From contig WGMR01000007.1 in NCBI GenBank assembly GCA_016124955.1, positions 1-32,839 on the forward strand: a DNA stretch of 32,839 bases, in the 5' to 3' direction. This document shows positions 12,243 to 22,378 of the stretch, one piece after another. The notes beneath the pieces are model-generated. The model had not been told where the DNA came from. It saw only the letters and a list, made by a program, of their open reading frames with translations, and did no database searches. The first letter of the stretch is position 1. Each line of letters begins with the position of its first letter. The position numbers and the translations under genes are program-made. The stretch is from Alphaproteobacteria bacterium. Lineage in GTDB: Bacteria; Pseudomonadota; Alphaproteobacteria; UBA9219; RFNS01.

Positions 12243-13214
12243 CTAGTTGTTTTTCCTGAATGTCTCCAGAACCCTGATGGCCGCGGGGCCGACCAGCACC
12301 ATGAACAGTGTGGGCAGGATGAAGATCATCATTGGGATGGTCAGCGTCGCGGGCAATTTGGCCGCCTTTTCTTCCGCCATCATCATGCGTTCGTCGCGCA
12401 TTTCCGCCGACAGAACGCGCAGCGCCTGCGCAAGCGGCGTGCCGAAACGTTCGGTTTGGATCAGCGTATTGACCAGCGCGAGCACGCCTTGCAGCGCGAT
12501 ACGATCCGCCATCGCCTGCAGCGCCTTGCTGCGTTCGGGCATCAGGTTCAGCTCGACGCCGGTAAGGGCAAGCTCCTCCGCCAGCTCGGGCGCCGTATTG
12601 CCGATTTCCCGCGCCACGCGATCGAGCGTGGCATCGAGCGAGAGCCCAGCTTCGGCGCAAATGACCATAAGATCGAGCGCATCAGGCATGGCGCGACGGA
12701 TGATTTCGCTGCGTTTCTTGGTTTTGGAGCGCAAAATAAAATCGGGCGCCATCCAGCCGACGAAGATCGCGCTGAGCAGGATCAGCAGTTTGACGCTGGA
12801 TTGGGCTTCGATTGTGCCGGTGACGAAAGCTGCAAAAAAGGCCGCAACGCCGAGCCCGAGCCCGACCGCGACCTTGATAAACATAAAGATAACGACGGCA
12901 TCGCGCCCGCGATAGCCGGCGCGGATCAGCTTTGTGCGCACCGCGCCAAGCACTTCATCGGTATTGAGTTGCAGCGCGCCCAGAACCTGTTTCATGAAAT
13001 CGAGCTGCCTGACGTCCGGGCGGCGGGAAGCCTTTTTCGCCGCCACGGCCTCCAGCTCCTTGCGGCGCTCGCTGATGCTCTTCAGCCGCCGCTGCAAGGG
13101 ATTGCGTTCGACGAAGGTAAACCATACGAGCGCGATCACGACCAACGCCGCGCCGCCGCCCAGCATGGCCATGGCATCGGGGTTATCGAGGTATTTTGAA
13201 AGGAATTTCGGCAT
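12243..13214 (-). CDS. tadC: Tad pilus inner-membrane platform protein TadC
   Basis: TadC is one of two GspF-type platform proteins on which the CpaF ATPase acts to assemble Flp pilin. The 323 residues show a membrane anchor near the N-terminus (LVVIALVWFTFV), a cytoplasmic linker, two membrane helices near residues 105-160, the GspF-type domain (RRAMPDALDLMVICAEAGLSL, TLIQTERFGTPLAQALRVLS, EKAAKLPATLTIPMMIFILP) and a final membrane segment. It is the last gene of the minus-strand cpa/tad operon, 30 bases after tadB, and converges on tadD with about 45 bases between stops. Confidence 0.93.
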   Translation of the reverse strand: MPKFLSKYLDNPDAMAMLGGGAALVVIALVWFTFVERNPLQRRLKSISERRKELEAVAAKKASRRPDVRQLDFMKQVLGALQLNTDEVLGAVRTKLIRAGYRGRDAVVIFMFIKVAVGLGLGVAAFFAAFVTGTIEAQSSVKLLILLSAIFVGWMAPDFILRSKTKKRSEIIRRAMPDALDLMVICAEAGLSLDATLDRVAREIGNTAPELAEELALTGVELNLMPERSKALQAMADRIALQGVLALVNTLIQTERFGTPLAQALRVLSAEMRDERMMMAEEKAAKLPATLTIPMMIFILPTLFMVLVGPAAIRVLETFRKNN

Positions 13215-13244: not shown

Positions 13245-14324
13245 CTAGAAATCGAAACGTATCATCTTGGCGATCACGCCGTGCCCGACCGCCATCAGGC
13301 CGAGACCGAAGAAAACAAGGTTGTTCCCGGCCTTGGTGGTGATGAGCGCAGAGACGTAATCGCGGCTGACGACGAACAGGATGATGAACATAACGAAAGG
13401 CAGCGCACCGATAATCATGGCGGAGGCGCGCGCTTCGGCCGACATGGCGCGGATTTTCAGCTTCAGCTGGCGGCGGCGGCGGATCAGCTCGGCCAGGTTA
13501 GCAAGCGTTTCCGCAAGGTTGCCGCCGGTTTCGCGCTGGATCGACATGGAAATGATCAGGAAGCGGAATTCCGGCGTGTTGATGCGTGCCGCCACTTCCC
13601 ACATCGCATCATCGAGGCTTTGTCCGATGCGGACGGCATCGGTTATGCGGCGGAATTCTACCCCCACCGGTTCGGGCATTTCGCGGCCCACGGCCGCCAT
13701 CGATTCGGTGACCGGCAGGCCGGAGCGCAGACCGCGGCACATGGTGTCGATCGCTTCGGGAAAATATTGCAGGAATTTCTTGACCCGCCGGTCGCCCATA
13801 AAGCCGATCACCAGATGCGGCAGCAAAACGCCGACGGCGATGCCGAACAGCGCCGAAGTACCGACGGTCTGATGCGCCACATGCTGCGTGACGAAGAAGC
13901 CTACCATGATCAGCAGGCCGGTGATCAGAAGATAGGAACCGATCGTGATTTTCTTGCCCGTACGTTCGAGCCGTGCGCGCAGTTTTTCGATGCGCGGCAA
14001 GCCGTTCTTCAAGAACTGGTCGAACATGGGAATGGCGCTGGCTTCGAAGCTGCGGCGCACCGAAAGCGGCTCTTCCCGTCTTTTGCGGTTGGGCGCGCGC
14101 TTGCCCGAAACGCGCTCGAGCCGCTTGCTGACGCTGTTATTCTTGTTCCCGCCCCCCATCATGATGAGCAGCAGAATGGCAACAACGGCGACGCCGCCGA
14201 CGATGAGCGTCAGATCGGGGCCTTGCGCAGCAGCAGCGGCGGCATTCGTGGCCGCATCGACGGCGGCTTCGCCGGCGGCAATTTTCTTCGCCACCACAGG
14301 GCCGGCTTCAGCCGCGCCGGTCAT
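13245..14324 (-). CDS. tadB: Tad pilus inner-membrane platform protein TadB
   Basis: TadB is the partner of TadC in the inner-membrane platform. The 359 residues begin with an unusual Ala-rich stretch of about 35 residues, then a membrane helix (LIVGGVAVVAILLLIMM), a basic linker, two helices near 125-170 and the GspF-type domain (FPEAIDTMCRGLRSGLPVTES, ISMSIQRETGGNLAETLANLA, MSAEARASAMIIGALPFVMF). The ATG overlaps the tadA stop by 4 bases (ATGA), so the two are translationally coupled. Confidence 0.93.
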   Translation of the reverse strand: MTGAAEAGPVVAKKIAAGEAAVDAATNAAAAAAQGPDLTLIVGGVAVVAILLLIMMGGGNKNNSVSKRLERVSGKRAPNRKRREEPLSVRRSFEASAIPMFDQFLKNGLPRIEKLRARLERTGKKITIGSYLLITGLLIMVGFFVTQHVAHQTVGTSALFGIAVGVLLPHLVIGFMGDRRVKKFLQYFPEAIDTMCRGLRSGLPVTESMAAVGREMPEPVGVEFRRITDAVRIGQSLDDAMWEVAARINTPEFRFLIISMSIQRETGGNLAETLANLAELIRRRRQLKLKIRAMSAEARASAMIIGALPFVMFIILFVVSRDYVSALITTKAGNNLVFFGLGLMAVGHGVIAKMIRFDF

Positions 14325-16027
14325 TTCCGCTCCAGCGCCGTCGGCTTCTCGGCTATCGCATCGAGAAGCTGTCGGTCGAGGTTGAAGTATTGTGCCTTGG
14401 TGAGGAAGTGCGGGCGCAGGCCGTGATTCTTGAACTCGATCAGCAATTTTCCGTCCGGTGTTTCGCCCTTCAGTTCGGTCGTGAACAGGTCTTGCATGGT
14501 GATGACATCGCCTTCCATGCCCACAATCTCGCTGATATGGGTAATGCGGCGCGACCCGTCGCGCATGCGGCTGACCTGTACGATCATATCAATGGCCGAA
14601 GCGATCTGCATGCGGATCGCGCGCGGCGGCAGGCTGACGCCGCCAAGCCCGACCATGTTTTCAAGGCGCATCAGCGCTTCGCGCGGGCGGTTGGCGTGGA
14701 CGGTGGAAAGCGAACCATCGTGGCCGGTATTCATGGCTTGCAGCATGTCGATCGCTTCGCCGCCGCGGCACTCGCCGACGATGATGCGGTCGGGGCGCAT
14801 ACGCAGGGAGTTTTTCAGCAAATCGCGGATCCCGATCTCGCCGTCGCCTTCGAGGTTGGCGGGGCGGGTTTCCAGCCGCACCACATGCGGCTGCTGCAGC
14901 TGCAGTTCGGCCGCGTCTTCGATGGTGACGATACGCTCGCCGTTGTCGATCATTTGCGACATGGCGTTAAGCAGCGTGGTTTTGCCCGAACCGGTACCGC
15001 CAGAAATGATGATATTGCAGCGCGCGCGCCCGGCGATGCGCAGCACCGTCGCCATGACGGGCGAGATGCTGCCGAACTTGATCATGGTGTCGAGCGTGAT
15101 TTTTTTCTTGGAAAATTTACGAATGGTAATGGTCGGCCCATCGATCGCCAGCGGCGGGATGATGATGTTGACGCGGCTTCCGTCCGCGAGGCGCGCATCG
15201 CACAGCGGCGAACTTTCGTCGATGCGGCGGCCCATGGCGGTCACGATGCGGGTGGCGACCGTCATGACATGGCCGTTATCGCGGAATTTCACGTTGGAAA
15301 GGGTCAGTTTGCCGCGCTCTTCCGTATAAATCTGCTTGGGGCCGTTGACCATGATTTCGGTGATGTTTTCGTCGTTCAGCAACGGTTCCAGCGGGCCGAG
15401 ACCGAGCATATCGTCGATCATGCGGACGACCAGCTCCTGCCGTTCGCCCGCGTTCAGGTGGATCTTGTTTTCGCTCAGAAGCTCGGTCACCAGATCGGTG
15501 ACGTCGCGCATCAGTTCGGCGCGGCTGACGCGCGCGGCGGCCGAACTGTCAATGCGCTGCAAAAGCAAGGGCTGGATCTTGTTCTTTGCGCTGTCGATTG
15601 AATTGTTGTTGCTGACGGCGCGGCGCTTTTCCTGCCCTTCGCTGGTCGCCACCGCGGCCAGGATCGCGGCTTCGGCCGCCGGGGCCGCGGGTCCTTCGCT
15701 GTCCTCGTCACCCTCTTCGCCCGGTACCGCAGAAGCGGCACGCGGCGATGCATCGGGGGCCGGCGCGTGGCCCGCTTCCTTGTGCGCGATCGCCAGCAGG
15801 CCGTTGACCAGCGCGGTGATAAGATCGCGCTGGTCGAGCCAGTTCAGCTCGACCTTTTTCTGGAACAGATGCTCGACCGTCAGGTCCTTGGCGGCGTGCG
15901 CGATTTCGGCGCGCGGCAGGCGCAGCGCCTTTTCAGGCGGAATGCGGGTACGCAGCGCCGGCATCAGCTCGTCGCGCAGCGTGCCGATCGTCATACCGGT
16001 TTTGCCGCCGCCGTCAGCCGGTGTCAT
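14321..16027 (-). CDS. cpaF: Tad pilus assembly ATPase CpaF/TadA with duplicated N-domain
   Basis: This secretion ATPase powers Flp pilus assembly from the cytoplasmic face. The C-terminal core holds Walker A GGTGSGKT (343-350), the Asp box IVTIEDAAEL (367-376), Walker B RIIVGECRGGEA (from 414) and the His box TGHDGSLSTVHANRP (434-448). The normal N-terminal helical domain is at about 148-215, running into GLGPLEPLL. Residues 17-81 repeat that domain: they align to 147-211 without gaps at a fixed offset of 130, sharing P, L, R-I, A-x-R, RAE, DL, E-x-L, K and LN. An acidic, Ala/Pro-rich linker (about 86-140) joins the two copies. At 568 residues it is longer than typical CpaF. It overlaps both neighbours by 4 bases. 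Confidence 0.95.
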   Translation of the reverse strand: MTPADGGGKTGMTIGTLRDELMPALRTRIPPEKALRLPRAEIAHAAKDLTVEHLFQKKVELNWLDQRDLITALVNGLLAIAHKEAGHAPAPDASPRAASAVPGEEGDEDSEGPAAPAAEAAILAAVATSEGQEKRRAVSNNNSIDSAKNKIQPLLLQRIDSSAAARVSRAELMRDVTDLVTELLSENKIHLNAGERQELVVRMIDDMLGLGPLEPLLNDENITEIMVNGPKQIYTEERGKLTLSNVKFRDNGHVMTVATRIVTAMGRRIDESSPLCDARLADGSRVNIIIPPLAIDGPTITIRKFSKKKITLDTMIKFGSISPVMATVLRIAGRARCNIIISGGTGSGKTTLLNAMSQMIDNGERIVTIEDAAELQLQQPHVVRLETRPANLEGDGEIGIRDLLKNSLRMRPDRIIVGECRGGEAIDMLQAMNTGHDGSLSTVHANRPREALMRLENMVGLGGVSLPPRAIRMQIASAIDMIVQVSRMRDGSRRITHISEIVGMEGDVITMQDLFTTELKGETPDGKLLIEFKNHGLRPHFLTKAQYFNLDRQLLDAIAEKPTALERK

Positions 16028-17235
16028 TTATCCTTGCCTCCGAGCAGCTTGCTCATGAAGCCACTTTTGCCGGTTTCCTGCTTTTTCATGCCGGTTATAT
16101 GTTCGGCGATCGCGCGGATTGCCTGCGCGCTCGGTGCCTGCGGCGTTATGGACGCAAGCGCCCGGCCGCTGTTGGCGGCATCGTTGGCCACCTTGCTGTC
16201 TTCGGGAATGACGAAGGATATTTTGTCCTGGATGCCTTTTTCGAAGGTGGCTTTATCGACCTGCGGCGGGCGGTCCTTGCCGTGGCGCGCGGTGACGATA
16301 AGCGGCGCGGTGGCGGCCGTTGCGCTTTGCGAGAGCATTTTGAGGCGCAGACAATCGCGGATTCCGAACAGCGATTGATCGCTGATCAGCAGGATGGCGT
16401 GCGCGAGGCCGAGAATGCGGCGCTGCGAGGAAACCAGGCTGCGCGGCAGATCGACGATCACGTAATCGAAGTTTTCGCGCACCTCTTTCAGAATGGCATT
16501 CAGCGCGCCGGGATCAACCGGCACCGGGTCTTCGAGATTTTCTTCGGCGCTGAGCACCGAAAGCTTGTCTTCGGCGATGATCATGGAGCTGGCGATCATC
16601 AGGCTATCGACCCGGCTCGGGGAGCTCATGATGTCGCGCGCGCCGCGCCCGGGCTCGATATCGAGCGAAAGCGCCGCCGTGCCGAATTGCAGATCAAGAT
16701 CGACCAGTGCGGTATTGAAGCCCTGCTCCTTGGCGAGAATCCACGCCATATTGACGGCGCAGGTGCTGGCACCGACGCCGCCGCGGCTGCCGATCACGAA
16801 CACGAGCCGCGCTTCCTTGGGCGCAGCCGAAGCGGATGCGCGCGGCTTTTGTGCGAGCTGCACGACCTGCGAGAGCGTATCGGGCGCGAGCGGCTTGACC
16901 ATATAATCCACGAGGCCGGTCTGGATGAAGGCGCGGTACATGCGCACATCGTTGACGCTGCCGGTGCCGATAACCTGGGCTTTCGGGCCGCACAAATTAA
17001 CGAGCCGCGCCGCCGCCGCCGGCTGATCTTCCTGGCCGTCGAAATCGACAAGCACAAGCTTGGGCGGCGTCGCTTGCTGCGCCAGCAGGCTTGCGAGCAT
17101 GTCGGGCCCGCCCGATTGCACGCAGGCTTCCGGCCAGCCTTGCTGCTTGGCCCAGGCGCGCAGCGTGGCGTTCGAATCTTCGTCGGTGACGAAAGCCATA
17201 AATTCGGGGTGGAGGATGTTTTCGCTGTCGCTCAT
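16024..17235 (-). CDS. cpaE: Tad pilus localisation ATPase CpaE/TadZ
   Basis: CpaE/TadZ is a MinD/ParA-like protein that places the pilus machine, often at a cell pole. The 403 residues contain an N-terminal receiver-like domain (about 10-130, with LVLVDFDG and VDYMVKPL) and a P-loop ATPase domain from about 143. The P-loop reads GSRGGVGAST (149-158): both lysines of the ParA form KGGVGKT are replaced by R151 and A156. TadZ proteins are known for deviant Walker boxes, so this is expected, but hydrolysis is doubtful. VDLDLQFG and YVIVDLPR mark the other nucleotide-site strands. Its stop overlaps the cpaF start (ATGA). Confidence 0.92.
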   Translation of the reverse strand: MSDSENILHPEFMAFVTDEDSNATLRAWAKQQGWPEACVQSGGPDMLASLLAQQATPPKLVLVDFDGQEDQPAAAARLVNLCGPKAQVIGTGSVNDVRMYRAFIQTGLVDYMVKPLAPDTLSQVVQLAQKPRASASAAPKEARLVFVIGSRGGVGASTCAVNMAWILAKEQGFNTALVDLDLQFGTAALSLDIEPGRGARDIMSSPSRVDSLMIASSMIIAEDKLSVLSAEENLEDPVPVDPGALNAILKEVRENFDYVIVDLPRSLVSSQRRILGLAHAILLISDQSLFGIRDCLRLKMLSQSATAATAPLIVTARHGKDRPPQVDKATFEKGIQDKISFVIPEDSKVANDAANSGRALASITPQAPSAQAIRAIAEHITGMKKQETGKSGFMSKLLGGKDK

Positions 17236-17276: not shown

Positions 17277-17723
17277 TTACGGGGTTTTCTCGACCGTCGG
17301 ATCCGGCAGGATCGAATTGGGCGGCGAGGTTGGGTCATGCAGGCCATAGGGCACGTCCCAGCGGTAACGCAGCACCGAATTGGCCGCCTTTTTGGCGTCG
17401 GTCGGGCCGAGCTCGCCGCCATCGATCAGATCTTCCGGGTCTTCGACCATCATGGCGAGGTTGCGCGCATTGGCGCAGCCAAGCGAGGGGATCGGCTGGT
17501 TATCGACCGGGCTGACGATATAGGTGCGCCAATCGGCACAGGTCGGCGGTACGGCGACGAACGTCCCCTCTTCCGCCGTGCTCGGCATCACCATGATGCG
17601 GTAATCCGGGTTCACGGTTTTGGTCTTCAGGCTTTCGAAGCAGCCGGAAAGCAGCATCGTTGCCGTTACCAGCGCCAGCGCGCCGAGCAGGTGATGTATG
17701 TGCTTGATCGGGGTGGTGGCCAT
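17277..17723 (-). CDS. cpaD: CpaD-type pilus lipoprotein
   Basis: CpaD is a small periplasmic or outer-membrane lipoprotein of alphaproteobacterial tad systems. The 148-residue product has a lipoprotein signal ending LLSGC (C28). The family core is recognisable in SLGCANARNLAMMVEDPEDLIDG followed by a KKAANSVLRYR segment. It is shorter than CpaD proteins I recall (about 200 residues), with a reduced middle part. GGAG overlaps the cpaC stop and lies 9 bases before ATG 17723, so it is coupled to cpaC. Position between the secretin and cpaE is the usual one. Confidence 0.88.
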   Translation of the reverse strand: MATTPIKHIHHLLGALALVTATMLLSGCFESLKTKTVNPDYRIMVMPSTAEEGTFVAVPPTCADWRTYIVSPVDNQPIPSLGCANARNLAMMVEDPEDLIDGGELGPTDAKKAANSVLRYRWDVPYGLHDPTSPPNSILPDPTVEKTP

Positions 17724-17729
17724 GGTCTT

Positions 17730-19166
17730 TTACTCCACGATAAAGCCGCCGGCCTGCACCGGGGCGGATACGGGTGGTTGCGCGGTCACAGCGGCAGCGA
17801 CGGGCGCGCCGCTCATGTTGCGCGACATCGGGTCGCTGGCGACGCGGCGCAGATCGAGCAGGCGATCGGTTTCTGTCGGCGGCGCGTAGCCGTCGGTCGG
17901 CATCGCGAGCTGCTGGGTGCTTGTGGGCTTCACGAGATAGGGCGTGACGATGATCACGAGCTCGCTTTGATCGTTCTGGAAGCTTGTGGAACGGAACAGC
18001 GCGCCGAGCACCGGCATATCGCCGAGGAAGGGAAATTTCCGCACGCTCTGGTTCTGCGAATTGGAAACCAGCCCGGCGATGGCGAAGCTCTGGCCGCTTG
18101 CGACCTCGACCGTGGTTTCGGCCCGGCGCACGCGCAGCGAGGGGATCTGCAGGTTGGCCAGAACCACCGCGCCTTCGCTCGAAAGTTCGCTCACTTCGGG
18201 CCGGACCCTGAGATTGATGCGGTTTTCGTTGACCAGTGTCGGCGTGAAAGAAAGCTTGATGCCGTAATCCTTGAACTGGACCGTCAGGGTCTGATCGTCC
18301 TGCGGCACGATGACGGGAAATTCCCCGCCCGCGAGGAAGTAGGCGGTCTGGCCCGACATCGCGGTCAGGTTCGGTTCGGCCAGAAGGCTGATCAGCCCGT
18401 CGGACGCCAGCGCATCGATGAAGCCGTTGATATCGGCATTATTGCCGTTGGCGAAGTTGAAGCCAAGCACGTTGGCTTCGTTCGGCCGCGACACGTTGAT
18501 GCCGAACGGCCCCGTGGGCACTGCCGTGGTGCCGGTGATGAGCCCGAGCGCGAAATTGTTGCCGAGCTGGAACGCATTGCTCCAGTTGATGCCGAACTGC
18601 TTGGTGACGTCGCGCGATATTTCCGCGACGCGCACGCGCAGATGGATCTGGTTGGAAGACTGAATACGCAGCCGGTCGATAATCTCGCCCTTGTCCGGGA
18701 TATAGCGCGCGGCGACGCGGTGCGCATCTTCGGCTGCGCCCGGATCGGCGACATCGCCGGTCAGCATGATGCCGTTGGGCACGGCCGCGACCTGGATGTT
18801 GTTGCCGGGCAGCAGCACATCGAGCGCGTGGTGAATATCTTCGAGGTTGAGCGTGACGCGCACCGCGCGTTCCAGCATTACGGCGCCGGCTTCGGTCACC
18901 GCCAGCAAGGTGGTTTCCCCGACCTTTTTGCCGAACACCATGACGGTGGTGGGCGACAGGACCTGGATGTCGGCGATTTCGGGATTGGCGATCGACACCG
19001 AGCCTGCCGGGTTGGCGAGCTGAAGGGTTTCGCCGCGGTCGATCATGATTTCGAGCGCGCCGCCGCGCGCCGCCATGGCCTGCCCCGGCAACGCCAGCAG
19101 CAGTGCGAAAAGCAGCGTGGCCAGCAGGGCGCCTGCGCCCTGCGGTGCGATCCGGCTTTGTTTCAT
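17730..19166 (-). CDS. cpaC: Tad pilus secretin CpaC/RcpA
   Basis: CpaC forms the outer-membrane channel through which the Flp pilus leaves the cell. I start at ATG 19166, with AGGAG 7 bases upstream, giving 478 residues; the frame is open to 19196. A signal peptide ends near LALPGQAMA. Next come a pilus-type N-domain (about 38-110, LQLANPAGSVSIANPEIADIQVLSP), a BON-like domain (NIQVAAVPNGIMLTGDVADPG) and the secretin domain in the C-terminal half (VPQDDQTLTVQFKDYGIKL, SGQSFAIAGLVSN, FPFLGDMPVLGALFR, ELVIIVTPYLVKP). It lies between cpaB and cpaD. Confidence 0.95.
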   Translation of the reverse strand: MKQSRIAPQGAGALLATLLFALLLALPGQAMAARGGALEIMIDRGETLQLANPAGSVSIANPEIADIQVLSPTTVMVFGKKVGETTLLAVTEAGAVMLERAVRVTLNLEDIHHALDVLLPGNNIQVAAVPNGIMLTGDVADPGAAEDAHRVAARYIPDKGEIIDRLRIQSSNQIHLRVRVAEISRDVTKQFGINWSNAFQLGNNFALGLITGTTAVPTGPFGINVSRPNEANVLGFNFANGNNADINGFIDALASDGLISLLAEPNLTAMSGQTAYFLAGGEFPVIVPQDDQTLTVQFKDYGIKLSFTPTLVNENRINLRVRPEVSELSSEGAVVLANLQIPSLRVRRAETTVEVASGQSFAIAGLVSNSQNQSVRKFPFLGDMPVLGALFRSTSFQNDQSELVIIVTPYLVKPTSTQQLAMPTDGYAPPTETDRLLDLRRVASDPMSRNMSGAPVAAAVTAQPPVSAPVQAGGFIVE

Positions 19167-19192
19167 CGTCTCTCTCCTCATGCCGCGCTCCG

Positions 19193-20092
19193 TCAACGCT
19201 GTTCGAATGTCATTTCGCCGGTCTCGCTGCCGCGCAGCACTTGCACCCTGCGAATAATAAGCTTGGGCGTGGGCAGAACGTTGCTGACGTCGCTATCCCA
19301 TGTACGATCCTTGCCCCCGCCCTGCAGCGCGGTTTCGGGGATCAGAAGGCCGCTGATGACATCTTCGGCGGTTTCGCCGCTTGCGTTCGCGGCTTCGCCC
19401 GCCGCCCGCTCTTCGGTCAGGACCGAGCGCAGCACAAGCGCCAGCGTGCCCCAATCAGCCATCAGCGCGACCTTTTCGGCGTCCTTCGGCGTGACTTCGA
19501 GCGTCGCGACATCGGCCAGCTTGGGCTCCTTGGCCTGATCGTCGATTTTTTGATCGAGCGCGAGCACGCGCGCGTTGGTCACAACGGTTTCGCTAAGCCG
19601 GCGCGTGGTCACGCCGCCATCGGTTTTCGGCACATCGACAAGATGCGTCAGGATTACATCGACCCGGTCGCCCGGGAATATAAGACCGGCAACGCCGGTC
19701 ACCGGTGTCAGCTTGACCGAAATGGCGCGCATGCCCGGTTGCAGAACGACGGCCAAAAAGCCCTTTTCGCCCGGGCGCAGCACGCTGTTTTTCATGACCG
19801 GCTCGCCTTCGCGCACGCCCGACCGCACGACGGTGCCGAGAAAGCTTGCGAGTTCATATTCCGTATTGGCGACCATGCTGGCGGTTTGCGCCTCGGGCGG
19901 CCATTTTTGCCACTGCAGATCGTCTTCCTTGATAAGCGTGCCCGCAGGCAGGTTGCGCGCCGCGATCATGATCTGCAACGGCTCTTCCTCGGCCACCTGC
20001 TGGGGCTGTTCGCCGCTGCCCAAAATCTTGATCGCGACCACGGCGACCACGATCAGGATCAGCGAGCCGAGTAGGACGATTCTGCGGTTCAT
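19193..20092 (-). CDS. cpaB: Flp pilus assembly protein CpaB/RcpC
   Basis: CpaB/RcpC is a periplasmic protein anchored by one N-terminal membrane helix (IVLLGSLILIVVAVVAIKIL) that works with the secretin. The 299 residues include a SAF-type domain (about 40-110, MIAARNLPAGTLIKEDDLQW, REGEPVMKNSVLRPGEKGFLA) and the RcpC domain (MRAISVKLTPVTGVAGLIFPGDRVDVILTH, with LVLRSV). ATG 20092 has AAAGGAG 8 bases upstream. The gene is 16 bases downstream of cpaA and upstream of cpaC. Confidence 0.94.
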   Translation of the reverse strand: MNRRIVLLGSLILIVVAVVAIKILGSGEQPQQVAEEEPLQIMIAARNLPAGTLIKEDDLQWQKWPPEAQTASMVANTEYELASFLGTVVRSGVREGEPVMKNSVLRPGEKGFLAVVLQPGMRAISVKLTPVTGVAGLIFPGDRVDVILTHLVDVPKTDGGVTTRRLSETVVTNARVLALDQKIDDQAKEPKLADVATLEVTPKDAEKVALMADWGTLALVLRSVLTEERAAGEAANASGETAEDVISGLLIPETALQGGGKDRTWDSDVSNVLPTPKLIIRRVQVLRGSETGEMTFEQR

Positions 20093-20108: not shown

Positions 20109-20615
20109 TCACAACGTGATGATGGGCCAAGCGATCATGCCCAGCGTGGCAAGACCGCCAGCGGCAATCGCCACGCCGTACGGGATCGGCACCTTGGCGA
20201 GCTGGCCCATCGAAACCTTGTTGCCGGCAATCTGCTGGCGGCGGTAAGCCAGCGCGCCCATCGAAAGCGCGAGCAGGCCGCCGGCGATGCCGGTGATGAC
20301 AAGCAGAACCCCGATATAGTTTGCGCCGGACCAAAGCGAGATTGCGGCCAGCATTTTGACGTCGCCCGCGCCCGCAAGATTGCCGGAAAACATGGCAAGG
20401 CCGATCACGAGCACGAGTCCGAACACCATAAGGTTCTGTTGCCACATGATATCACTGGGCGCCGACAGAACGAACAGCGGAAACAAAAGGATCAGGGCTG
20501 CGCAGATCGCGTTGGGAATACGGAAGCGTCGCGCATCGATCACCGCAGCGATGATGATCAGGATCGCTGCGACGAGAAGAATGGACAGATGAAAGCTTGC
20601 GAATTCCGTAATCAT
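20109..20615 (-). CDS. cpaA: Prepilin peptidase CpaA/TadV
   Basis: CpaA is an A24-family aspartic protease of the inner membrane that cuts the leader from Flp prepilins. From ATG 20615 it has 168 residues with about five or six membrane segments. The two catalytic aspartates are D27 in DARRFRIPN and D85 in the GAGD motif (82-85). The frame is open to 20657, and that upstream start cannot be excluded. Unlike bifunctional type IV prepilin peptidases, it has no methylase domain, as is usual in tad systems. It is the first gene of the cpa operon, and a CtrA-type box lies about 80 bases upstream. Confidence 0.93.
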   Translation of the reverse strand: MITEFASFHLSILLVAAILIIIAAVIDARRFRIPNAICAALILLFPLFVLSAPSDIMWQQNLMVFGLVLVIGLAMFSGNLAGAGDVKMLAAISLWSGANYIGVLLVITGIAGGLLALSMGALAYRRQQIAGNKVSMGQLAKVPIPYGVAIAAGGLATLGMIAWPIITL

Positions 20616-20696
20616 GGCTCTCGGGATTCCGGGTTGTGAAACAAGGCCTTTAAACATAGAGGCGTGATGGTTAACGACAGTGTCGCAAATTATTAC

Positions 20697-20895: not shown

Positions 20896-21063
20896 TTAGC
20901 TGGAAAGCGCGTTCTTGATGGTTGTGAAGGTGTTGTTCAGCGCGGTCGCGACCTCGCCAAGGGCGGCTACGATGCCAACGGCGATAAGCGAGGCCAGCAG
21001 GCAATATTCGATTGCGCTGCCGCCATTTTCTTCCGCAATAAAACGCATGATGGCGCTTTTCAT
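20896..21063 (-). CDS. Flp-type prepilin, divergent copy
   Basis: This short gene encodes 55 residues: a basic leader (MKSAIMRFIAEENG), the class IVb prepilin motif with cleavage expected after G14 and E19-Y20 at +5/+6, and one hydrophobic helix (CLLASLIAVGIVAALG), ending TTIKNALSS. The leader would be cut by CpaA. AAGGG lies 9 bases before ATG 21063. It is the most divergent of four tandem copies: C21 replaces the glycine found in the others (EYG), and the tail lacks the Ser-rich end with added residues. It could be a minor or regulatory pilin. It has its own terminator. Confidence 0.9.
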   Translation of the reverse strand: MKSAIMRFIAEENGGSAIEYCLLASLIAVGIVAALGEVATALNNTFTTIKNALSS

Positions 21064-21250: not shown

Positions 21251-21430
21251 TTACGAGGAAGAGGGCGCAACGAGCTTGCCCTTCACGGTCGTGAAAGTAT
21301 TGTTCAGCTCGGTGCCGACTTCGCCCAGGGCGACGACGATGGCGACCGAGATGAGCGCGGCGATCAGGCCGTATTCGATCGCGGTGGCACCGGATTCTTC
21401 TTTAACGAAACGGATCAAAAGGTTACGCAT
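21251..21430 (-). CDS. Flp-type prepilin
   Basis: The product is a 59-residue prepilin. The leader MRNLLIRFVKEESG is followed by the cleavage site ATAIEYG and the hydrophobic helix LIAALISVAIVVALG, then VGTELNNTFTTVKGKL and a Ser-rich end. I choose ATG 21430 because GGAGAG lies about 7 bases upstream; the open frame to 21472 has no such site. The mature pilin would polymerise into the bundle-forming Flp fibre. A promoter-like pair lies at 21490-21519 and a terminator follows the gene, so it is likely transcribed alone. Confidence 0.93.
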   Translation of the reverse strand: MRNLLIRFVKEESGATAIEYGLIAALISVAIVVALGEVGTELNNTFTTVKGKLVAPSSS

Positions 21431-21489
21431 AATATCTCTCCATAAAAAGTTGTTTAAATAAGCACGTTTCAATCAAGTGTGCAGGGGGG

Positions 21490-21727: not shown

Positions 21728-21877
21728 TTACGAGCTCGAGCCGCCCGTCAGCTTGGTTTTCACGGTGGTGAAGGTGTTGTTCAGCTCGGTGCCGACTTCA
21801 CCGAGCACGACAACGATGGCGACCGAGATGAGCGCTGCGATCAGACCATATTCGATCGCGGTGGCACCCGTTTCTTC
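21728..21877. repeat. 150-bp direct repeat with 22199-22348
   Basis: The two segments can be aligned without gaps and differ at about five positions. They encode the mature part of two Flp pilins. The flanking intergenic DNA is not similar. This fits recent tandem duplication, or gene conversion keeping the mature pilins alike. Confidence 0.85.
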
Positions 21878-21907
21878 GCGGAGGAATCTTTGCAAAATAT
21901 GTTTCAT
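21728..21907 (-). CDS. Flp-type prepilin, near-identical to its neighbour
   Basis: The product is a 59-residue prepilin with leader MKHILQRFLREETG, then ATAIEYG, the helix LIAALISVAIVVVLG and a tail ending KTKLTGGSSS. ATG 21907 has GGGAGAG just upstream; the frame is open to 21955. From the cleavage site on, the mature pilin matches the copy at 22199-22378 residue for residue, and the DNA differs at only a handful of bases. The leaders differ, so the duplication covers the mature part, or the leaders have drifted. Confidence 0.93.
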   Translation of the reverse strand: MKHILQRFLREETGATAIEYGLIAALISVAIVVVLGEVGTELNNTFTTVKTKLTGGSSS

Positions 21908-22104
21908 GCTCTCTCTCCCTTCGAAAGTTTGGCCTTCATGTAAAATAGTGTGCACGTGGACTATAACGCAGTATGATTAAAAACCCGTGAAGCGCATGCA
22001 AGAAACCAGCCTGTAGCAAGGGTTTATGGATTGTTTGACAAAAACTTTCGGAAAATTTTCGCGGCATGTTCGCGTATATTTTTTGCCCCGATGAACCCGT
22101 ACAA

Positions 22105-22198: not shown

Positions 22199-22378
22199 TT
22201 ACGAGCTCGAGCCGCCCGTCAGCTTGGTCTTCACCGTGGTGAAGGTGTTGTTCAGCTCGGTACCGACTTCACCGAGCACGACAACGATGGCGACCGAGAT
22301 GAGCGCTGCGATCAGACCATATTCGATCGCGGTGGCGCCGGTTTCTTCCTTAATAAAACGAGCTAATACTGTACGCAT
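22199..22378 (-). CDS. Flp-type prepilin, first of the tandem cluster
   Basis: Reading the minus strand from ATG 22378 gives 59 residues: leader MRTVLARFIKEETG, cleavage site ATAIEYG, helix LIAALISVAIVVVLG and tail KTKLTGGSSS. A clear Shine-Dalgarno (AAGGAGAT) precedes it. It is the most upstream of the four pilin genes and nearly identical to the copy at 21728-21907. The long AT-rich gap upstream probably holds its promoter. Confidence 0.93.
   Translation of the reverse strand: MRTVLARFIKEETGATAIEYGLIAALISVAIVVVLGEVGTELNNTFTTVKTKLTGGSSS

Follow-up and report, generated by a model that had tools for sequence, protein, structure and literature searches.

The window, a stretch of alphaproteobacterial DNA of 32,839 nucleotides analysed at its full length, carries on its minus strand a gene for a 568-residue protein (14321–16027) that we identify as CpaF/TadA, the motor ATPase of the Tad pilus. 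This protein is encoded alongside CpaE/TadZ, two T2SSF platform proteins, a secretin, CpaB, CpaD, a prepilin peptidase and Flp pilins, all read from the same strand. Upstream of cpaF lie cpaE/tadZ (16024–17235), which codes for a receiver-like part and a ParA/MinD-like ATPase (Pfam AAA_31, E = 6.3e-14; weak match to Response_reg), cpaD (17277–17723; Pfam Pilus_CpaD), the rcpA/cpaC secretin gene (17730–19196; Pfam Secretin), rcpC/cpaB (19193–20092; NCBIfam TIGR03177, E = 2.7e-58) and the prepilin peptidase gene cpaA/tadV (20109–20657; Pfam Peptidase_A24). Downstream follow the genes for the platform proteins TadB (13245–14324; Pfam T2SSF, E = 1.7e-27) and TadC (12243–13214; Pfam T2SSF, E = 6e-15). 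The cpaF frame overlaps with both cpaE and tadB by four bases, and its ATG overlaps the stop codon of cpaE. Four small, consecutive genes for Flp-type pilins (20896–21063, 21251–21472, 21728–21955 and 22199–22378) are found upstream of the prepilin peptidase gene, and at least two of the four encode nearly identical mature parts. The TadB protein of the window begins with about 35 additional Ala-rich residues that are missing from most of its relatives in our alignment.

The assignment of the ATPase relies on a match to Pfam T2SSE (E = 7.6e-67), on the alignment of residues 115–558 with the bundle, the N-terminal domain (NTD) and the ATPase domain of a solved CpaF (9e24, E = 5.8e-153), and on the catalytic motifs, which include the Walker A sequence GGTGSGKT (residues 343–350; 14978–15001) and the invariant columns. 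The score against the NCBIfam TadA-family model TIGR03819 (340) stays under the cut-off of that model (373). By comparison with solved CpaF, with the internal alignment and with an AlphaFold2 model, residues 142–208 (15404–15604) are the canonical three-helix bundle (3HB), which runs into the sequence GLGPLEPLL as described in the initial annotation. This bundle is followed by NTD2 (about residues 209–306; 15110–15403; boundary approximate and inferred) and by the C-terminal ATPase domain (about residues 307–568; 14324–15109; boundary also approximate). The region ahead of the canonical bundle contains a second candidate 3HB (residues 12–84; 15776–15994), henceforth copy 1, joined to the canonical bundle (copy 2) by an acidic linker rich in Ala and Pro (residues 85–141; 15605–15775), with a net charge of −7 across 58 residues. 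None of the Pfam and NCBIfam models searched matches copy 1.

The initial annotation had proposed from inspection that residues 17–81 and 147–211 form a gapless repeat at an offset of 130 with about 18 identities, and that the first copy is an extra element carried on an acidic Ala/Pro linker. Direct alignment returned exactly 18 identities and zero gaps, and the composition of the linker is as described. The span originally given for the duplication (15610–15980) does cover copy 1 plus the linker, but copy 1 proper occupies about 15776–15994. Within CpaF the best ungapped segment pairs residues 13–84 with 143–214, again at offset 130, and all other internal offsets score 39 or less. The Smith–Waterman score of the two copies (BLOSUM62) is 96, compared to a mean of 24.8 (s.d. 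4.5) and a maximum of 50 in 5000 shuffles. When a profile built from 22 first copies of diverse relatives was compared by hhalign with one built from 12 canonical CpaF bundles, 71 columns aligned without a gap (probability 98.6%, E = 5.1e-16). This comparison had been named beforehand as one that could overturn the duplication, and it came out significant. A profile trained exclusively on second copies also picks up the first copies of the window protein and of many relatives, with E-values from about 1e-5 to 1e-10. A two-sequence BLASTP search with the two copies returned no alignment, but we set this result aside in view of the contrary evidence from direct alignment, profiles and structure.

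To examine the fold of this region we relied on an AlphaFold2 model of full-length CpaF calculated with 50 homologues (mean pLDDT 86.5). The helices of copy 1 (residues 14–28, 31–34, 39–57 and 63–84; pLDDT 91–98) and those of copy 2 (one ending at residue 158, then 161–164, 169–186 and 193–208) match in order, with equivalent helices 130 residues apart. The structure prediction, which could have separated residues 1–85 from 147–211, is thus in line with a shared fold. Of the extension as a whole, residues 11–90 are predicted to be folded (pLDDT 81–98), and only residues 1–10 and 91–127 fall below 50; from residue 120 onward the linker is modelled as a helix that continues into copy 2. Folded alone, copy 1 reached a pLDDT of 95.9. 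A Foldseek search with this isolated model ranked solved CpaF bundles at the top (probability 0.99, TM 0.65 to 8rjf), with an E-value that is weak for so short a bundle (0.2). Superposition on the 3HB of 8rkd (residues 80–148) gave 2.6 Å over 69 residues and a VIA Z of 8.4, a value that other helical proteins approach as well. Since structural scores of such short bundles are weak, the claim of homology is carried by the sequence evidence, with which the structure agrees: the model indicates that copy 1 shares the fold of the solved CpaF bundle.

Helical bundles easily look alike, and a VIA Z of 8.4 by itself would be a poor argument against copy 1 being an unrelated bundle that merely resembles copy 2. 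We consider this explanation very improbable in view of the alignment and profile statistics, the single offset that relates all helices, and the identification of CpaF as the best Foldseek match. Chance similarity was also considered and was ruled out by the alignment score, the profile E-values and the matching helices. Judged on sequence, copy 1 is a genuine extra 3HB that is homologous to the canonical bundle.

We then asked how widespread this architecture is, as the initial annotation had suggested doing. Among 289 genomes sampled evenly across the Alphaproteobacteria, 133 contain a CpaF-like match, and in 36 genomes the first-copy profile matches at least twice within one CpaF frame. 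The named relatives in the comparison were Sneathiella, Kordiimonas, Kiloniellales, Sphingomonadales and Amaricoccus; Sneathiella and Kordiimonas are examples of culturable, non-pathogenic bacteria whose CpaF carries both bundles. Of 110 CpaF proteins examined, 109 had a usable core, and 43 of these, from about 29 families, carry copy 1 (two more are weak), although the true share is likely lower because the examined set is biased to the sequences nearest the window protein. Presence and absence are sharply split, with E-values below 1e-3, and mostly far lower, or no match at all. Every complete CpaF examined from the order of the window genome contains copy 1; in the Caulobacter-like branch none of 39 does. 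Outside this branch most CpaFs carry copy 1; it seems to be missing from several small groups. The reported duplication is real, and it is not peculiar to this genome. A search across the phylum, for which the make-up of the sample outside the class is not stated, returned matches solely in the class of the window genome.

On a tree computed from the CpaF core with the bundle excluded, the presence of copy 1 requires seven changes, compared to about 34 with shuffled labels, and a second tree with outgroups agrees. A single gain followed by several losses fits this tree, and a single origin is likely, with modest tree support. Sequence identity speaks less clearly for one origin, as first copies from different lineages are no closer to each other (22%) than to second copies (22–23%). 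We examined recent or repeated duplication as an alternative and rejected it, since the two copies of one protein (23.0% identity) are no closer to each other than copy 1 is to copy 2 of other lineages (22.2%). Copy 1 resembles the second copies of double proteins (22% identity) more than the bundles of single ones (16%), which is what an origin within the double branch would predict. In leave-lineage-out scoring, aimed at the question of a single origin, the first-copy matrix gave the higher score for 83 of 86 first copies, but that matrix is also softer, and a preference for it does not distinguish one origin from several. Together these data portray the double-3HB architecture as old and widespread, present in many alphaproteobacterial families.

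Two genomes encode both forms, G091 (locus L167 with and L223 without copy 1) and G312 (L178 with and L235 without). Because some related lineages do without it, copy 1 cannot be essential to the Tad motor, and its role must be dispensable. The survey also turned up two further arrangements. One CpaF (L148, G123:C25) contains three 3HBs, namely residues 31–97, residues 99–167 and the canonical bundle. Another, from Armatimonadetes CG2_30_59_28 (L108:3210–5201, plus strand), has both the bundle and NTD2 duplicated ahead of the normal unit, and this looks like an independent event.

We also compared the constraint on the three regions of the protein. In the order of the window genome the mean pN/pS rises from 0.16 in the core to 0.37 in copy 2 and 0.58 in copy 1, which points to purifying selection on copy 1 that is weaker than on copy 2 and the most relaxed of the three. 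First copies align without gaps across orders, and among 87 double proteins the conserved residues of copy 1 are R39, A43, L61, N62, R67, L69 and L73 (window numbering). We consider it improbable that the extra bundle is a by-product of duplication that does little and was kept by chance. Its faster evolution relative to copy 2 and its absence from several lineages of the double group would fit this explanation, but its persistence in about 29 families, the gap-free conservation, pN/pS below 1 and the retention of R39, L61 and R67 speak against drift. R39 was also considered as a companion feature of the double form and was dismissed; it is kept even where copy 1 is absent and thus marks only the lineage.

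The two copies have diverged in specific ways. The acidic residues of copy 2 equivalent to positions 30, 56, 65 and 76 are strongly conserved but mostly not retained in copy 1, and copy 1 carries less negative charge (net −1.1 on average, versus −4.4 for copy 2). The hinge motif DDMLGLGPL, strongly conserved in copy 2, is mostly missing from copy 1, while the helix-3 stretch LN-L-[DE]QRDLVT is retained. With its acidic face and hinge lost, copy 1 would not simply repeat the job of copy 2. The linkers of double proteins are rich in Ala, Pro and Glu and vary in length from 13 to 126 residues (median 36). A separate feature emerged from the first 60 residues of CpaF: an FG[KR] motif, often MFGKR or MFGRR and sometimes repeated, occurs in 53 of 66 single-3HB alphaproteobacterial CpaFs (L035, L182, L052 and L054 among the examples) and in 23 of 78 double ones, with an expectation from shuffling of about 1.2–1.4. 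None of 16 CpaFs from the order of the window genome contains it. This is possibly a binding motif in the disordered CpaF N-terminus.

What the extra bundle may do can be framed by studies on Caulobacter CpaF. The six bundles of this hexamer stick out from its top and shift during the nucleotide cycle (PMC12019362, PMC11300603). The hinge glycines are essential, and truncation of the disordered N-terminus alters pilus dynamics (PMC12019362, PMC11300603). A lower-confidence model places an acidic face of the 3HB next to basic helices in the platform proteins CpaG and CpaH (PMC12019362, PMC11300603). The initial annotation had referred to N-domain contacts with platform proteins or TadZ; such contacts derive from AlphaFold models, with lower confidence for those between 3HB and platform (PMC12019362).

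Our preferred reading, to which we assign a probability of roughly 0.55, is that the first 85 or so residues are a 3HB that arose by an old tandem duplication of the N-terminal bundle within the cpaF gene and has since diverged to serve as an arm for docking or regulation. Homology, predicted fold, distribution and purifying selection are established by the data above; from these we infer the position in the hexamer, the docking and the effect on dynamics. With two bundles per subunit the hexamer would hold twelve. By analogy to the solved Caulobacter hexamer, the six canonical bundles would form the membrane-facing rim, and the six extra ones would be suspended from them by flexible acidic linkers. 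Most simply, the second bundle, placed where Caulobacter has a disordered N-terminus, would act as a tethered arm on that side of the hexamer. There it would contact a neighbouring part on the membrane side (the CpaE/TadZ ring or the platform of TadB and TadC) and tune motor engagement or pilus dynamics, as the N-terminal region whose place it takes is indicated to do in Caulobacter. We regard docking or regulation by such an arm at the membrane-facing rim as the most likely role.

A narrower proposal, that the extra bundle is specifically a docking module for CpaE/TadZ that ties the motor to a polar or membrane anchor ring, appears to us possible though rather unlikely. CpaE dimers surround CpaF in situ, and AlphaFold3 predicts a contact between the two proteins (PMC13170226); cpaE is also located directly upstream of cpaF. 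Moreover, one relative (L082:2661–4892, plus strand, JAJXWQ010000018.1) encodes, directly after a secretin gene, a single 743-residue frame in which a ParA/CpaE-like ATPase domain is fused to the N-terminus of CpaF, which suggests that CpaE and this terminus are close together. However, the single-bundle CpaF of Caulobacter is likewise placed with CpaE, and the partial co-evolution signal between copy 1 and CpaE dropped to 0.06 in a set of 54 loci. In the same set the partial distance correlation of copy 1 with TadB is 0.15–0.19 (standard error 0.08), compared to 0.23 for the secretin control with copy 2, so these values do not single out a partner. An earlier run with 23 loci had given higher correlations of copy 1 with both CpaE and TadB, which shrank with 54 loci and the secretin control.

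Alternatively, the extra bundle could pack on the canonical bundle or on that of a neighbouring subunit to form a second tier of the hexamer with altered stability or rim diameter. The common fold of both copies and the lower acidity of copy 1, which would ease packing against copy 2, are compatible with this idea, as is the observation that movement of the 3HB sets the pore size in Caulobacter (PMC12019362). We judge it to be slightly less probable still than specific docking to CpaE, since linkers that range from 13 to 126 residues are ill suited to fixed packing, and the single-chain model shows no readable contact of copy 1. The preferred reading, that of a tethered arm, can also be extended. 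Tentatively, a large branch of alphaproteobacterial Tad motors may represent a fourth, so far undescribed architecture, in which a second tier of six (in one case twelve) extra 3HBs on flexible tethers would bind a partner of its own and thereby control how far the pilus extends or retracts.

One and the same ATPase both extends and retracts Tad pili, and how it does so is an open question. The N-terminal region of CpaF is a proposed control element, and the N-termini of alphaproteobacterial CpaFs have been classified as disordered. Our survey suggests that a large share of these proteins instead begins with a folded, duplicated bundle. Duplication as such is ordinary; this one is of interest because it is widespread and affects the region proposed to control pilus direction. 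Motors with one and with two bundles, sometimes encoded in the same genome, constitute a natural set for testing the role of the N-terminus directly.

Published CpaF proteins are grouped into class I (minimal), class II (with an intrinsically disordered region, IDR) and class III (with an FHA domain), and alphaproteobacterial CpaFs are described as almost exclusively class II, with disordered N-termini (PMC12019362). This scheme lists no class with two 3HBs, and the window protein fits none of the three. The initial annotation knew of no described case, and we found no description of a double-bundle CpaF in the open-licence literature. Class I proteins such as Aggregatibacter TadA (3HB-NTD-CAD) have the core domains in common with the window protein but lack an N-terminal extension, whereas 141 residues precede the canonical bundle of the latter. 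The archaellum ATPase FlaI follows a homologous 3HB-NTD-CAD plan with a small additional folded N-terminal part, and no duplication of its bundle is described in that source (PMC12019362); the sequence match between FlaI and CpaF is limited to the core. Class III proteins (FHA-IDR-3HB-NTD-CAD) likewise begin with an additional folded domain that is attached through a linker. Their extra domain has the FHA fold, whereas that of the window protein, which gave no FHA match, is all-helical and homologous to the 3HB. The closest comparison is with the class II protein of Caulobacter crescentus (8rjf, 8rkd, 9e24; Yen et al. 2025, PMC12019362), which has the same 3HB, NTD2, ATPase domain and operon partners. 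Residues 1–79 of that protein are disordered (NTD0/IDR), while the window CpaF, with residues 11–90 of its extension predicted to be folded, appears to carry a second 3HB in their place.
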